From: Schwartzia succinivorans DSM 10502
GTDB lineage: Bacteria; Bacillota; Negativicutes; Selenomonadales; Selenomonadaceae
Reading direction: 5' to 3'
Length of the DNA stretch: 64,000 bases
Assembly (NCBI RefSeq): GCF_900129225.1
Contig: NZ_FQUG01000006.1
Location: 1 to 64,000, forward strand
The translations under genes were made by a program, and so were the position numbers. Of this stretch, positions 17,489 through 23,496 are shown piece by piece (the first letter of the stretch is position 1; every line of letters starts with the position of its first letter). The notes under the pieces are model-generated. The model was not told the DNA's origin, did no database searches, and saw nothing but the letters and a program-made list of their open reading frames with translations.

Positions 17489-18244
17489 ATGAATAAAAAT
17501 AATTTATCAAAAGTGCAGCAGGAAACCTTTGACCCTGCCATACTGAACGACATTGAAGGCTACTGGAACGAACGCAGCAAGACCTTCAGCGAAACACGTA
17601 AAAAGGAAATGTCAGGTCCCGGCGGCGCCGCATGGCTGAAGCTTTTGTCGGAACATCTGCCGACGGGCAGAACCCTCAAGGTACTGGATATCGGCACAGG
17701 CGCGGGCTTCTTCGCGATTCTTCTCGCAAAGCTGGGCCATGACGTGACAGGTATCGACATGTCCGCAGACATGCTTCATCAGGCAAAGCTCAACACAGTT
17801 GCTCTCGGCGTCCGCGCGAAATTCCAAAAGATGAACGCCCAGGAAACGGACTTTGACGACAACACCTTTGATGCCATCATCAGCCGCAACCTCACGTGGA
17901 CTCTCCCCGATGCAATGGAAGCCTACCACGAGTGGCACAGAATCCTGAAGCCCGGCGGACTTCTCATGAACTTCGACGGTGACTACGGCAAGGCTGACTT
18001 CACGCGCCACGACGATAAGGAAAACGTCCACGCCAATATCCGTCAGGAGCTTGTAGACACCTGCAACCGCATCAAAAACTCCCTGCGCATCAGCACCCAC
18101 CGCCGCCCCGCGTGGGATATCGAGGTGCTGAAAAATCTCGGCATGCAGGTGGAATATGAAGAAGATATATCCCCCATTGTCTATAACGACCCTGAAATGC
18201 ACTACGACGGCATACCCCTCTTTGCCATCTACGCAGTAAAATAA
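17489..18244 (+). CDS. Class I SAM-dependent methyltransferase divergent from the ABC transporter operon
   Basis: A 251-residue methyltransferase: motif I VLDIGTGAGFFAILL (about 54-68), acidic loop TGIDMSADML, and the motif SRNLTWTLPDAME (about 134). Its C-terminus RPAWDIEVLKNLGM resembles the methyltransferase at the far end of the transporter operon. Stem and divergent promoter upstream suggest co-regulation with transport. The last 52 bp of the gene are repeated at 21228-21279, next to a terminator, showing that a 3-kb segment was inserted exactly at its stop codon. Confidence 0.88.
   Translation: MNKNNLSKVQQETFDPAILNDIEGYWNERSKTFSETRKKEMSGPGGAAWLKLLSEHLPTGRTLKVLDIGTGAGFFAILLAKLGHDVTGIDMSADMLHQAKLNTVALGVRAKFQKMNAQETDFDDNTFDAIISRNLTWTLPDAMEAYHEWHRILKPGGLLMNFDGDYGKADFTRHDDKENVHANIRQELVDTCNRIKNSLRISTHRRPAWDIEVLKNLGMQVEYEEDISPIVYNDPEMHYDGIPLFAIYAVK
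18193..18244 (+). repeat. 52-bp direct repeat, left copy (3' end of the methyltransferase gene)
   Basis: From TGAAATGCACTACGACGG to GCAGTAAAATAA this stretch matches 21228-21279 with a single C/T difference over 52 bp; similarity stops right after the stop codon. It looks like an attachment site (attL) of an integrated element. Confidence 0.85.
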
Positions 18245-18344
18245 GCTGTTATTGGTACTTTCGCAATTAAAAAACTCTCGCAACTTGCAAAAGATTTCTT
18301 TTTAACTGCCATTGACTACAGTCATCAAAAAATTTATACTTTAA

Positions 18345-18414
18345 GTGCTTGTTTGAAGGATATTCGTATCCTTAAATTTAATCCCCCTGCGTGTTGGTAG
18401 CACCAGGGGGATTT
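18345..18414. repeat. Two-hairpin motif, copy 1
   Basis: AAGGATA-TTCG-TATCCTT (18356-18373) is a perfect hairpin with a TTCG loop. It is followed by AATCCCCCTG...CAGGGGGATT (18380-18413), with an inner GTG/CAC pair and loop TTGGTAG (18394-18400). The flank GCTTGTTTGAAG and both hairpins recur at 19775-19845 with compensating changes. On the minus strand the second hairpin could also end the 18416-19729 operon. Confidence 0.65.
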
Positions 18415-18415
18415 C

Positions 18416-18715
18416 TTATTCCTCGAAGAGAAATTCACGGATTAATGCACGAAAGGACTTCCCATTTAGAAACGGCATTTCAAGTAAGTCCTTAAAATTT
18501 TCATTTGAAATAACTTCCTTGAAAGCCGGTTGTGTGACAATAGCGTACCTATGTCCAATACGGGTTACCATATACTCCTGCCCGTCATACCAAAATAATG
18601 TTTCAACTGTCAGCGGTGGATTATCCTCCCGTTCTGGCCATTCGTCCCAGCTTTGCCATTTTATATATTCATCCATTGTTATTCGAATTACGTGCTTTCC
18701 ATTGGGCCCACGCAT
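18416..18715 (-). CDS. Hypothetical protein, last gene of the island operon
   Basis: A 99-residue protein not recognised by family. It is acidic and aromatic-rich (MDEYIKWQSWDEWPERED, then LFWYDGQEYMVTRIG), with a C-terminal helix RALIREFLFEE. The ATG at 18715 has GGAGAG 6 nt upstream. It overlaps the preceding gene by 47 bp. Small overlapping partner genes of this kind are often immunity proteins or antitoxins, but nothing in the sequence proves it. Confidence 0.65.
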   Translation of the reverse strand: MRGPNGKHVIRITMDEYIKWQSWDEWPEREDNPPLTVETLFWYDGQEYMVTRIGHRYAIVTQPAFKEVISNENFKDLLEMPFLNGKSFRALIREFLFEE

Positions 18716-19106
18716 AATCTCTCCTCTCCCTCCACACATCACTGATAAGACTTGCAAGCTTCTTTTCCTTAACCGTCAGTTTTGATGCACCTTTTGGGGA
18801 ATCGTTTTCGTTGTGCTCATATCCGTGATGAATATGCGGCATCATTCCCGCATGTCCATGCTGAAGGTCAATCTGCTTTTCCTTCTTATTTGACTTGTCG
18901 TAATATGAAATATACTTCGGCTCCCCCGTAACTCTATCAAGCGTCACGTACACTCTGTTATTTGTCATGGTTTCTTTGGGAGCTTTCGTATTCCCGTTAT
19001 TAACAACCACAAATTTTATGTTTCCATATGTAAGCAGCGATGAATACTCTGACCCATATCTTTTTCCCTGTACACTCACACCGGAGCTGCTTCCTCTTCC
19101 ACCCAT
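18669..19106 (-). CDS. Phage-associated small protein with N-terminal GGRGSSSG motif and His-rich core
   Basis: A 145-residue protein starting MGGRGSSSGVS, an N-terminus common in small phage and mobile-element proteins. A His-rich segment, LQHGHAGMMPHIHHGYEH (about 81-98), resembles metal or catalytic motifs of some polymorphic-toxin domains; I cannot assign a family with certainty. It is translationally coupled to the upstream DUF4417 gene (TAATG overlap) and overlaps the downstream gene, so the three form one operon inside the repeat-bounded island. Confidence 0.65.
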   Translation of the reverse strand: MGGRGSSSGVSVQGKRYGSEYSSLLTYGNIKFVVVNNGNTKAPKETMTNNRVYVTLDRVTGEPKYISYYDKSNKKEKQIDLQHGHAGMMPHIHHGYEHNENDSPKGASKLTVKEKKLASLISDVWRERRDYAWAQWKARNSNNNG

Positions 19107-19729
19107 TACCTACCCACCTTTCCGAAGGCAGGATAATCTACGGCGATTATATTCCCTTCCATTTCCTCAAATGGTCTGCCAACGCAAAGAATCGCTTCTG
19201 GCTCAATTCTTCGAAGCATTTCTCTATATCCGGCCAAAAATTCCTCCTTTGCGTGCTTACATCCTATCATTCCTATTGCAACGGTTGACCCCTTTTCTAC
19301 TGCATCAAAGCAAAAATCATAAGACGCCTTCGTGCTCCAGCCAATTGTCGGAATAACTTTAACTCCCTGACTTTGCCAAAACGCACCGCACCATCTGCTG
19401 TGACCAACACTCTCTATCTGACGCCAATAATTCATGTCTGCGTAAGCAGAGAAATCCGGAGTGCACGCAAACATGTATTGTGAAACCTTTTCCAAAAATT
19501 TCTCCGGATTATTATAGGCTGCTAAAAATTTATAGTCATCTACAAAAAAATGCAGTCCCTTTTTCCTGTTTTCCTCGCTATCATTATATTTTGCGTCAGT
19601 TGCGGAAATGAGCCTAATTTTGAACAAATCAACGTCCTGTTTCCTTATACGCGGAAATTGGAATTTCCCCTCTGTTTCAAATTCATTTCGAAGGAACAGA
19701 GGATTACTACGGTAATCTTTTGATTTCAT
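19106..19729 (-). CDS. DUF4417 family protein
   Basis: A 207-residue protein that fits DUF4417, a family frequent in phages and mobile elements with unknown activity: RNEFETEGKFQFPRIR at the start, HFFVDDYKFLAAYNNPEKF in the middle and IGMIGCKHAKEEFLAGY later. ATG 19729 was chosen because GTGAGG lies 9 nt upstream. The leader can form competing hairpins over this ribosome site (19739-19800). First gene of the island operon. Confidence 0.8.
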   Translation of the reverse strand: MKSKDYRSNPLFLRNEFETEGKFQFPRIRKQDVDLFKIRLISATDAKYNDSEENRKKGLHFFVDDYKFLAAYNNPEKFLEKVSQYMFACTPDFSAYADMNYWRQIESVGHSRWCGAFWQSQGVKVIPTIGWSTKASYDFCFDAVEKGSTVAIGMIGCKHAKEEFLAGYREMLRRIEPEAILCVGRPFEEMEGNIIAVDYPAFGKVGR

Positions 19730-19738
19730 ATTTATTTT

Positions 19739-19800
19739 CCTCACTTTCTTACGTGAGGATACGAAACTCAACTGCTTGTTTGAAGAATATCCGTATCCTC
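19739..19800 (-). promoter_or_regulatory. DUF4417 leader with mutually exclusive pairings over the ribosome site
   Basis: Reading the minus strand: segment B (GAGGATACG, 19792-19800) can pair with A (TATTCT, 19784-19789) or, perfectly over 9 bp, with C (CGTATCCTC, 19755-19763). C also contains CCTCAC, which pairs perfectly with the ribosome site GTGAGG (19739-19744). A-B pairing would free C to hide the ribosome site; B-C pairing would expose it. Confidence 0.55.
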
Positions 19801-19845
19801 AAATTTGTTGAATAAACCCTGCTATTGGTAGTAGCGAAGTTTATC
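19775..19845. repeat. Two-hairpin motif, copy 2
   Basis: Shares the GCTTGTTTGAAG flank and the arrangement of copy 1. First hairpin: AGAATA/TATCCT around TCCG. Second: ATAAAC...GTTTAT outer stem (19812-19844), inner stem GCTA/TAGC and the identical loop TTGGTAG (19825-19831). Both stems differ in sequence from copy 1 but remain paired. Confidence 0.65.
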
Positions 19846-19932
19846 TATGCCCAGGTATTGCCGTATTTCAACCCCCTTTCTCCGTAGCTTTACACACCAA
19901 ACAAATAAATCACATAGCCGCTCACCTCCTAA

Positions 19933-21027
19933 TCAATTTCTTATTATTCCCAACAAATCATAGTAGTAAAATGTCCTGTTTCTCTGTTTGCCATTTGTAT
20001 ATAAGATTTTGTTCTCCAGAAGGATATTTAGGAATCTGTTCAATGTAGCCGTTGGCATCTTCAGCATATTGGAAAGCTGTTTCACAGTCGTAACGGGGCA
20101 TTTGTAAAGTGAGGTTATCACTTGAACAATATTAGGAGAATTAGATTTTTCCATCGCTAAGCTCAAGTGCTTTTCATACAGATTATTTATTTCTGAAATA
20201 ATCATTATGTACTTGTCGCACTGCTTGGCTACCGTCTCTAGGAAAAACTTAATCCACTCGTTCCAATCATTATTTGTTCTTATATTCGTGAGCAATGTAT
20301 AGTATTTGTGTTTGTCGTGTTCCAATGCCTCACTGATAAAAAAGCACGGCAAATCTATCTGCTTCTTATAGAACAAATACATCGGAATAAGCATTCTGCC
20401 TACACGCCCGTTACCGTCCATGAAAGGATGTATCGTTTCAAACTGCGCGTGTATAATCGCAGTACGTACTAACGGTCTGTACGAATCATTAGGGTTATTC
20501 ATATATTCAATTAAATTCGCCATCAGCTCATGAACTTCTTCCGCAGCCGGCGGAATAAACGTAATTGTATGCACGGGATCATTTTTCCCTATATAATTTT
20601 GCTTCACTCTATACTTTCCAATAAGCTCTGGTTTTCTTACATTTCCACGCATCAATGCTATATGCATCTCATAGAAAAAATCGTCAGTGAATTTTTCTCT
20701 CGCAAGTATCCTATACCCCAATGTCGTTGCATAATGATAATTCAACACTTCATTCAGATTTTGATCATTTGTTTTTTCTTCCGTCTGATATGTGAGCACA
20801 CCGTCCAAAGTTGCCTGAGTTCCTTCAATTGCAGAGGATGCTAATGCCTCCTTCTGCTGCAGCGTTGGCATAAACCACTCACTACCAAGTTTGCTGTCAT
20901 GAATTTTTTCCTTATATACTTCCAGTTTAGCTGTAGCATCAATTAATTCTTCCACAAAATACGAATAATCTATTACTCCGCTAGGCAAAGGCAATTTACT
21001 TGCTTTGTAAGACTCATTCATCAGCAT
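19933..21027 (-). CDS. Fic family protein (AMPylase-type) with class II inhibitory motif
   Basis: A 364-residue Fic protein. The catalytic motif HPFMDGNGRVGR (about 188-199) is complete, with the His and the phosphate-binding NGR. SSAIEGTQ near residue 55 matches the S/T-xxx-E-G/N inhibitory helix of class II Fic proteins, so the enzyme is probably self-inhibited. The C-terminus (VKQLSNMLKMPTATLNRFL) looks like a winged-helix domain, typical of stand-alone Fic proteins. ATG 21027 has AAAGGAGG just upstream. It lies alone inside the repeat-bounded island. Confidence 0.93.
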   Translation of the reverse strand: MLMNESYKASKLPLPSGVIDYSYFVEELIDATAKLEVYKEKIHDSKLGSEWFMPTLQQKEALASSAIEGTQATLDGVLTYQTEEKTNDQNLNEVLNYHYATTLGYRILAREKFTDDFFYEMHIALMRGNVRKPELIGKYRVKQNYIGKNDPVHTITFIPPAAEEVHELMANLIEYMNNPNDSYRPLVRTAIIHAQFETIHPFMDGNGRVGRMLIPMYLFYKKQIDLPCFFISEALEHDKHKYYTLLTNIRTNNDWNEWIKFFLETVAKQCDKYIMIISEINNLYEKHLSLAMEKSNSPNIVQVITSLYKCPVTTVKQLSNMLKMPTATLNRFLNILLENKILYTNGKQRNRTFYYYDLLGIIRN

Positions 21028-21227
21028 TAACCCTCCTTTCAACTCGATTATACCAGAATAAGAATCATTTTTCAAGATTTTTGATTCTTATTTTCTTATA
21101 GCTATCTTTTTTATTCATTTTTCCTTTTATCGTTATCATGTAAAATCATACTAATTTGCAAAACTCGCTAAAATTCAAGCAAACAGAAACATTAGAATGA
21201 TTCTTGCTCTCGTAAATGAGTCTAACT

Positions 21228-21279
21228 TGAAATGCACTACGACGGCATACCCCTCTTTGCCATCTATGCAGTAAAATAA
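21228..21279 (+). repeat. 52-bp direct repeat, right copy
   Basis: Repeats the last 52 bp of the methyltransferase gene (18193-18244) with one mismatch, but without the rest of the gene. It is followed by the terminator that would have served that gene. Likely attR of the 3-kb island. The remainder of 21076-21428 shows no gene. Confidence 0.85.
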
Positions 21280-21293
21280 ACTCTTATCCCTTC

Positions 21294-21332
21294 CCCCGGC
21301 AGACTAAAACTCGTCCTGTCGGGGACTTTTTT
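21294..21332 (+). terminator. Original terminator of the methyltransferase gene
   Basis: CCCCGGCAG and CTGTCGGGG pair (one G-T) and are followed by ACTTTTTT. It lies 15 bp after the right 52-bp repeat and no longer has a plus-strand gene directly before it. Confidence 0.8.
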
Positions 21333-22848: not shown

Positions 22849-22875
22849 GTACCCATTAGCAGATATTTTTTAGCC
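22817..22875. repeat. 59-bp direct repeat, copy 1
   Basis: Spans the terminator plus the end of the HAD gene. It matches 25662-25720 with five differences, all A/G transitions, and brackets a 2.8-kb accessory segment. Confidence 0.75.
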
Positions 22876-23496
22876 AAACCGCTTCAATGTTTCCTTGGCA
22901 GAGATGAACAAAATACCTGTCCCGCCAGCTTTTTCCCACTCCTTGATATTTTTCTCATAATCATCTATCAGAATGCAGTCTCTCCCGGTAACATAATTTT
23001 TCTTTTCTTCCCTGTAAACGATATTGACCTTGATGTGCTCCCCAAGGTTTCTGCGTACCCATTCGATTTTATCATCAGCGGCTGTGTCAATACCCCTTCT
23101 CGGCTTAGGAATACCGCTCAAAATTTCACAGGCACCCGGGTATTTTTTATCAAGCAGCTGAAACATCTCCCTGGCACCATCGCAAAACTCCAGCTTATTA
23201 TAATGCCTTTAATCAAAGTTTGCCATAGGCAAACTTTCCTCTGCGGCATTTCAACGAGGCGGGAGATATGCTCACCGCCTGTTATTTGTCTTAACCCCCA
23301 CTTACAGAAGTGGGGGACATCTTGGGGCCGAGTTATAAAAATGCTCTACCGCCCTAATGGCCCCAAACAAACGGTCATCGTCGCCTTTATTTTTATTACT
23401 CTGATCAACAGGCTCCATTCCGCATAATTCCCTTACACCTCGATCAAAATCTGCCAATACTCCGTCCAAATCAAAATATATCTTTTGTATTTCCAT
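22870..23496 (-). pseudogene. HAD-superfamily 5' nucleotidase-like gene split by a 129-bp element
   Basis: The N-terminal part (from ATG 23496) carries the HAD nucleophile motif YFDLDGVLADFDRG and runs to AVEHFYN. The C-terminal part carries SGIPKPRRGIDTAADDK and DCILIDDYEKNIKEW, the later HAD motifs. Between them lies the 129-bp element 23204-23332 with in-frame stops. Removing the element plus one TTATAA copy gives HFYNKLEFCDGAREMF in frame, so the insertion is the only lesion seen. A start at 23166 could still yield a C-terminal fragment, but it would lack the nucleophile. Confidence 0.88.
23204..23332 (-). mobile_element. Short palindromic insertion element (copy B), non-autonomous, inside the HAD gene
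   Basis: On the minus strand the element starts CTCGGCCCC, has a hairpin CCCCCACTTCTGTAAGTGGG(GG) 16 nt from that end, a middle GGCGG/CCGCC hairpin, and near the other end a perfect 10-bp hairpin AAAGTTTGCC-TAT-GGCAAACTTT followed by GATTAAAGGCA. TTATAA flanks both sides (23198-23203, 23333-23338). It encodes nothing. Hairpins at both ends without terminal inverted repeats fit IS200/IS605-type non-autonomous elements. Confidence 0.75.

Follow-up and report, generated by a model that had tools for sequence, protein, structure and literature searches.

An island with DUF4417, MGGRG and Fic genes in Schwartzia succinivorans as a probable member of a modular cassette family with an antisense small RNA

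In the 64,000-nucleotide stretch of Schwartzia succinivorans DSM 10502 analysed here (contig NZ_FQUG01000006.1, positions 1 to 64,000 of the forward strand; hereafter, the window), a 3-kb island lies between two copies of a direct repeat at the 3' end of a methyltransferase gene, and carries genes for a DUF4417 protein, a protein termed MGGRG, a small open reading frame (ORF), orf3, and a Fic protein. The question raised by this locus is whether the island is the scar of a lone integration event or a unit that recurs elsewhere. By comparing gene order, RNA covariation and RNA pairing across related loci, we find that it looks less like a lone integration scar than like a horizontally acquired member of a conserved and modular cassette family, widespread among unrelated gut and rumen bacteria. 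We consider it probable that this cassette is of the toxin-antitoxin or abortive-infection kind, with a small RNA (sRNA) that controls the DUF4417-MGGRG-orf3 operon.

The genes of the island and their signals are as follows (aa, amino acids):
18275-18293, minus strand: terminator-like hairpin at the operon end of the island, from the terminator scan
18416-18715, minus strand: orf3, about 99 aa, putative start, no family match
18669-19106, minus strand: MGGRG protein, 145 aa, phrog_9479 (E-value 1e-48)
19106-19729, minus strand: DUF4417 protein, 207 aa, PF14386 (E-value 1e-51), ATG start placed by alignment
19933-21027, minus strand: class II Fic AMP-transferase, putative start, Fic (E-value 9e-18) and Fic_N (E-value 5e-17)
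21047-21075, minus strand: extended sigma-70-like promoter upstream of Fic, TTGAAA-17-TATAAT, 11/12, from the promoter scan

These family matches bear out the cargo listed in a preliminary description of the island, namely DUF4417, a phage-like protein, an unknown small gene and Fic, with no integrase. A search of genome contigs with DUF4417 returned nine loci, to which Selenomonadaceae-like relatives of the window and Lachnospiraceae-type genomes added others. Approximately 20 DUF4417 loci besides the window (from Lachnospiraceae, Selenomonadaceae and other Bacillota) have the same gene order and spacing at unrelated genomic sites; the 20 loci compared all carry DUF4417, in nearly all cases followed by the MGGRG protein and an ORF of about 90-113 aa. 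The order of the cassette is an upstream module (Fic, or Xre plus ImmA/IrrE, or AbiEi/AbiEii), DUF4417, the MGGRG protein (phrog_9479) and the small ORF. Xre plus ImmA/IrrE make up the upstream module in most of the 20 loci, Fic is present in the window and at loci L030 and L090, and AbiEi/AbiEii occur at L127, a locus found via its sRNA. The upstream module has been exchanged repeatedly, since the Fic cassettes are scattered on the DUF4417 tree, where well-supported branches force 3 separate label changes, while identities among their three Fic proteins are 61-67%. Neighbouring genes differ among the loci (the L030 cassette, for example, directly follows dnaJ), which points to mobility.

Within the window, the MGGRG start overlaps the DUF4417 stop (TAATG), which suggests that the two genes are translationally coupled and means that one switch could govern the operon. 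The strong promoter-like site before Fic, together with the failure of the promoter scan to find a strong separate promoter before the DUF4417 leader, suggests that Fic and the operon are co-transcribed. The Fic gene is intact, with the canonical motif HPFMDGNGRVGR and an N-terminal inhibitory SSAIEG motif, features that it has in common with class II (SoFic-like) Fic proteins. It matches the PADLOC SoFic profile (E-value 1e-100), but differs from SoFic in its NCBIfam score, 148.6 bits where the SoFic cut-off is 550, and in being one of several exchangeable upstream modules. PADLOC gave no match for DUF4417, MGGRG or orf3, and the two literature passages on DUF4417 that were consulted give it no function. 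A similarity of MGGRG to Ntox24 (E-value 0.03) was below threshold and was not relied on. The window also contains, after the Fic stop and before the DUF4417 leader (19910-19930, minus strand), a minimal start-stop ORF, AGGAGGTGAGCGGCT-ATG-TGA, with a good Shine-Dalgarno sequence. A second, distant DUF4417 gene is located near a contig end in the same genome (L067, G000:C13:803-1348).

Two related sequence elements, one at each end of the operon, carry the argument for RNA control:
18312-18340, plus strand: sigma-70-like promoter of the sRNA, TTGACT-17-TATACT, from the scan, with equivalent boxes in sibling loci
18343-18417, plus strand: antisense sRNA, consisting of hairpin 1 and a terminator hairpin with a UUGGUAG loop, putative +1 near 18347
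19730-19850, minus strand: leader of the DUF4417 messenger RNA (mRNA), with the complement of sRNA hairpin 1 at 19770-19806
near 19815-19846, minus strand: leader hairpin with loop CUACCAA

The sRNA gene, of approximately 74 nucleotides (nt), is convergent to the DUF4417 operon at the operon's 3' end and has, at the sequence level, its own sigma-70-like promoter and terminator. In 13 loci this 3' copy has TTGAC(A/T)-17-TATAAT-like boxes directly upstream and folds as a hairpin ahead of an intrinsic terminator whose loop is UUGGUAG (UUGGUCG in two). RNAalifold analysis of the 13 aligned sRNA sequences gave 25 pairs, with 95.7% of cells paired and two-sided changes in 10 pairs; both helices covary, and the covariation score was reached by 0 of 500 shuffles and by no slid control. 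A covariance model, R1, recovers the sRNA in 13/13 loci at 76-96 bits, these being the sequences from which it was built (76 bits, E-value 4e-15, for the window sRNA, itself in the training set), as well as the leader copy in 13/13 loci at 19-43 bits, the leaders having been outside model building. In the window the leader match spans 19770-19846 (38.5 bits), and in the genome as a whole R1 matches only the sRNA and leader sites. Across 299 Lachnospiraceae-type genomes, R1 gave, besides weaker matches, a further three clear loci, each adjoining the orf3 of a cassette that had been partly lost. No match to the sRNA was found in Rfam, and its motif was not found in viral contigs.

The sRNA and the leader segment at 19770-19846, a pair that the preliminary description had not noted, carry related sequence; as the two are read from opposite strands, the leader contains the complement of the sRNA, and the loops UUGGUAG and CUACCAA match. 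Over these related loci, cognate sRNA-leader duplexes averaged -48.1 kcal/mol versus -38.0 kcal/mol when re-paired, a value as low being obtained in 0 of 20,000 permutations, and transitions between sRNA and leader copies were G-U-compatible in 31 cases versus incompatible in 8 (T/C 22, C/T 0). At L024 and at L025 of Butyrivibrio hungatei DSM 14810, an altered loop (TTGGTCG) is common to sRNA and leader. L029 (2499-4310) has the same sRNA and leader layout in unrelated sequence, with complementary UUGGCG/CGCCAA loops, and is, as judged from this layout, a second specificity class of the RNA pair.

Two hairpin motifs in the same orientation that bracket DUF4417-MGGRG-orf3 at a spacing of approximately 1.4-1.46 kb might also be taken for the ends of an IS200/IS605-like single-strand transposon with DUF4417 as transposase. 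However, a promoter and terminator accompany the 3' copy, the 5' copy lies within an mRNA leader, and the copies act like complementary RNAs, covarying pair by pair; furthermore, the upstream module of the cassette lies outside the motifs, and the genome contains the motif at just two places. Given the promoter boxes and cognate pairing, we dropped the transposon reading as highly improbable.

Three segments can be told apart in the leader: the target of the sRNA, a stretch complementary to that target, and the Shine-Dalgarno region. Blocking the sRNA target lowered predicted Shine-Dalgarno accessibility by 0.34-0.60 in 8 of 13 leaders and raised it in none (0/13), and control predictions, in which other stretches were blocked or the middle was shuffled, showed no effect on average. 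In the mechanism that we propose, sRNA transcribed from its own promoter would pair with the leader of the DUF4417-MGGRG-orf3 mRNA, first through a kissing contact of the sRNA terminator loop UUGGUAG (of the YUNR or U-turn type) with the leader loop CUACCAA, from which pairing would spread over approximately 30 nt of complementarity. At most loci, the downstream leader segment thus freed would base-pair with the Shine-Dalgarno region, thereby switching off the coupled operon. Were phage takeover, stress or cassette loss to halt sRNA synthesis, translation of the operon would follow, and the adjacent module (Fic here; Xre plus ImmA/IrrE or AbiE elsewhere) would serve as toxin or sensor partner.

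It is important to note that several points weigh against this proposal: (i) expression and toxicity of the cassette are predictions; (ii) the predicted folds of DUF4417 and MGGRG gave no confident match in the PDB, the MGGRG model itself being poor (mean predicted local distance difference test score, pLDDT, 64); (iii) the pairing and covariation counts come from related loci, in which events are non-independent; (iv) leader self-pairing has a mismatch at L026; (v) the Shine-Dalgarno prediction is neutral for the window (0.37 to 0.37), one of five neutral leaders among the 13; (vi) the cassettes at L081-L084, L086, L093 and L094 show no R1-type sRNA; and (vii) three decaying cassettes (L127, L128 and L129) keep the sRNA and orf3 after loss of DUF4417, with MGGRG also lost at L128 and L129. 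Since the window prediction is neutral, repression there may proceed via duplex formation or mRNA decay instead of burial of the Shine-Dalgarno region. The leaders of L081 and L093 contain, about 200 bases upstream of DUF4417, a sense-strand hairpin with the loop UUGGCG (ACTG-TTGGCG-CAGT and GCTG-TTGGCG-CAGC, respectively), possibly a third RNA arrangement that lacks an R1-type sRNA.

The convergent antisense sRNA and the evolutionarily maintained sRNA-leader complementarity are features of type I toxin-antitoxin systems. In the par locus of pAD1, Fst and RNAII are transcribed from convergent promoters, with the sRNA gene lying at the mRNA unit's 3' end (PMC7472228); both RNAs read direct repeats in opposite directions, contact is made at a terminator loop and involves a U-turn motif, and the Shine-Dalgarno sequence is sequestered (PMC7472228). 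The cassette resembles par in these features of layout, Shine-Dalgarno sequestration under sRNA binding being predicted for 8 of 13 leaders and neutral in the window. The two differ in that the cassette operon encodes three proteins (207, 145 and about 99 aa) and no small hydrophobic peptide toxin, whereas par encodes a 33-aa membrane peptide; the cassette sRNA is approximately 74 nt as opposed to about 40; the U-turn-type loop resides in the sRNA of the cassette but in the mRNA of par; and only the cassette has an additional, exchangeable upstream module.

A toxic or anti-phage role is suggested by the type I layout, by the modules that accompany the operon and by the relationship of its genes to phage genes, to which we turn below. 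With confidence somewhat short of even, we propose a previously undescribed cassette family in which an antisense RNA outside Rfam silences translation of a phage-derived DUF4417-MGGRG-orf3 operon coupled to interchangeable Fic, Xre-ImmA or AbiE modules, amounting to RNA-gated abortive infection with protein-sized effectors. DUF4417, a family with no assigned function, thereby gains a regulatory context and a testable role, and a strongly covarying sRNA family that Rfam lacks, with a trackable cognate mRNA target, comes to light. Fic, Xre-ImmA and AbiE, three kinds of abortive-infection or toxin modules, become linked as exchangeable parts of one cassette, and if the operon proves toxic or inhibits phage, the cassette would be an antisense-controlled system whose effectors are protein-sized and not the usual small peptides.

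The phage DUF4417 (phrog_940/phrog_8680) and phrog_9479 proteins are homologous to those of the island, and in Streptococcus phage A25 their genes are adjacent, a DUF4417-sized coding sequence (A25_22) and an MGGRG coding sequence (A25_23) standing directly before TerS and TerL. In the IMG/VR locus L141, the cassette lies beside terminase-like and ParB-like ORFs, as read by eye. Such neighbours would suit a prophage or satellite remnant, in which DUF4417 and MGGRG are DNA-packaging accessory genes of phage kept as decoys or interference factors against packaging. Unlike the cassette, however, the phage copies examined have neither orf3 nor an R1-type sRNA or leader motif, and the A25 gene pair has no Fic, Xre-ImmA or AbiE annotated beside it. 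The cassette is moreover conserved in many chromosomes with no other adjoining phage genes, and we judge a packaging remnant distinctly unlikely. No satellite hallmarks (genes for replication, packaging redirection or capsid size) were recognised in the island, DUF4417 and MGGRG being only neighbours of terminase genes in phages. A GenBank scaffold labelled 'Bacteriophage sp.' (L094, MT835546.1 10237-22857), the best match among phage-labelled records at 59% identity, contains an Xre-ImmA-DUF4417-MGGRG-orf3 cassette; it was rejected as a phage carrying the cassette because its gene content is that of a bacterial chromosome fragment, with S1-like, PSP1-like and holB-like ORFs (read by eye).

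How the cassette arrived at its present site can be approached from its borders:
17489-18244, plus strand: gene for an S-adenosylmethionine-dependent methyltransferase (Pfam Methyltransf_11, E-value 5e-24), whose 3' end is the insertion site
18193-18252: direct repeat copy 1, by repeat alignment, comprising the gene's 3' end and 8 bp past its stop
21228-21287: direct repeat copy 2, 57/60 identical to copy 1
21294-21332, plus strand: likely original methyltransferase terminator, from the sequence, at a terminator-like site in the scan

The preliminary description had named a 52-bp repeat with one mismatch, about 3 kb apart, the second copy directly preceding what was thought to be the gene's original terminator. 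Both observations held on re-examination: identity is 51/52 over that stretch, the copies are 3035 bp apart, and copy 2 is followed by the hairpin CCCCGGCAG...CTGTCGGGG-T6 (21294-21332). The alignment score of the repeat is 105 versus a shuffled maximum of 26, and its 23-bp core, with as many as 3 mismatches allowed, has two occurrences in the window and none in 100 shuffles. The sole mismatch in the coding part is synonymous (TAC/TAT, Tyr). At L003, in another genus, a methyltransferase ortholog (65% identity) has its stop followed immediately by a terminator hairpin, an arrangement consistent with the pre-insertion state. Together with the repeat, the displaced terminator and the drop in G+C content (38.7% in the island versus 52% and 45% in the flanks), this makes a foreign insertion at the methyltransferase 3' end well supported at the level of sequence.

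The insertion had been ascribed to site-specific integration by an element whose integrase acts in trans, such as a satellite, or has been lost. A foreign insertion at the gene's 3' end stands; the part played by an integrase in trans fares less well and is at most possible for the window copy. An integrative element of this kind, whether a satellite or a decayed prophage or integrative and conjugative element, would have used a tyrosine integrase supplied in trans or since lost, with the 60-bp repeats as attL and attR. It would account for the presence of the repeat at a gene 3' end, where the reading frame is restored at the cost of a synonymous change, for the displaced terminator and for the foreign composition of the insert, and a second cassette of the family, at L081, is likewise flanked by a repeat (approximately 95-119 bp) with full-length copies only at its two borders. 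Against it, neither the ORFs of the island nor family searches of its proteins yielded an integrase or excisionase, a whole-island search found no other copy of island or repeat in the genome, and the exact 32-bp repeat core is absent from the viral contigs searched. In addition, most sibling cassettes occupy unrelated sites with no flanking repeat, no att site common to them was found, 25 bp of the L081 repeat recur in dispersed form in the genome that carries it, and the flanking repeat at L022 is a dispersed repeat. We regard an integrative element as unlikely, and the idea of a satellite that simply lost its integrase gives way to that of a modular cassette, widespread and equipped with an RNA regulator of its own.

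The variety among siblings, with other cassettes at unrelated sites and repeats that are varied, absent or in some cases dispersed through the genome, would also follow from homologous or repair-mediated insertion, in which incoming DNA with a methyltransferase gene end beside the cassette recombined and left two copies. Between the repeat copies there are one synonymous change and two changes past the stop, a pattern that two alleles would show. This route is possible, if on the doubtful side: a donor with the cassette beside this methyltransferase gene was not found, and 60 bp is short for homologous recombination. A plasmid search with the island DNA gave no match. Short repeats near cassettes were also seen at L029 and L086. 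Elsewhere in the window (22870-23496, minus strand), two short ORFs look like pieces of one broken gene, with an NT5C match in the downstream piece.

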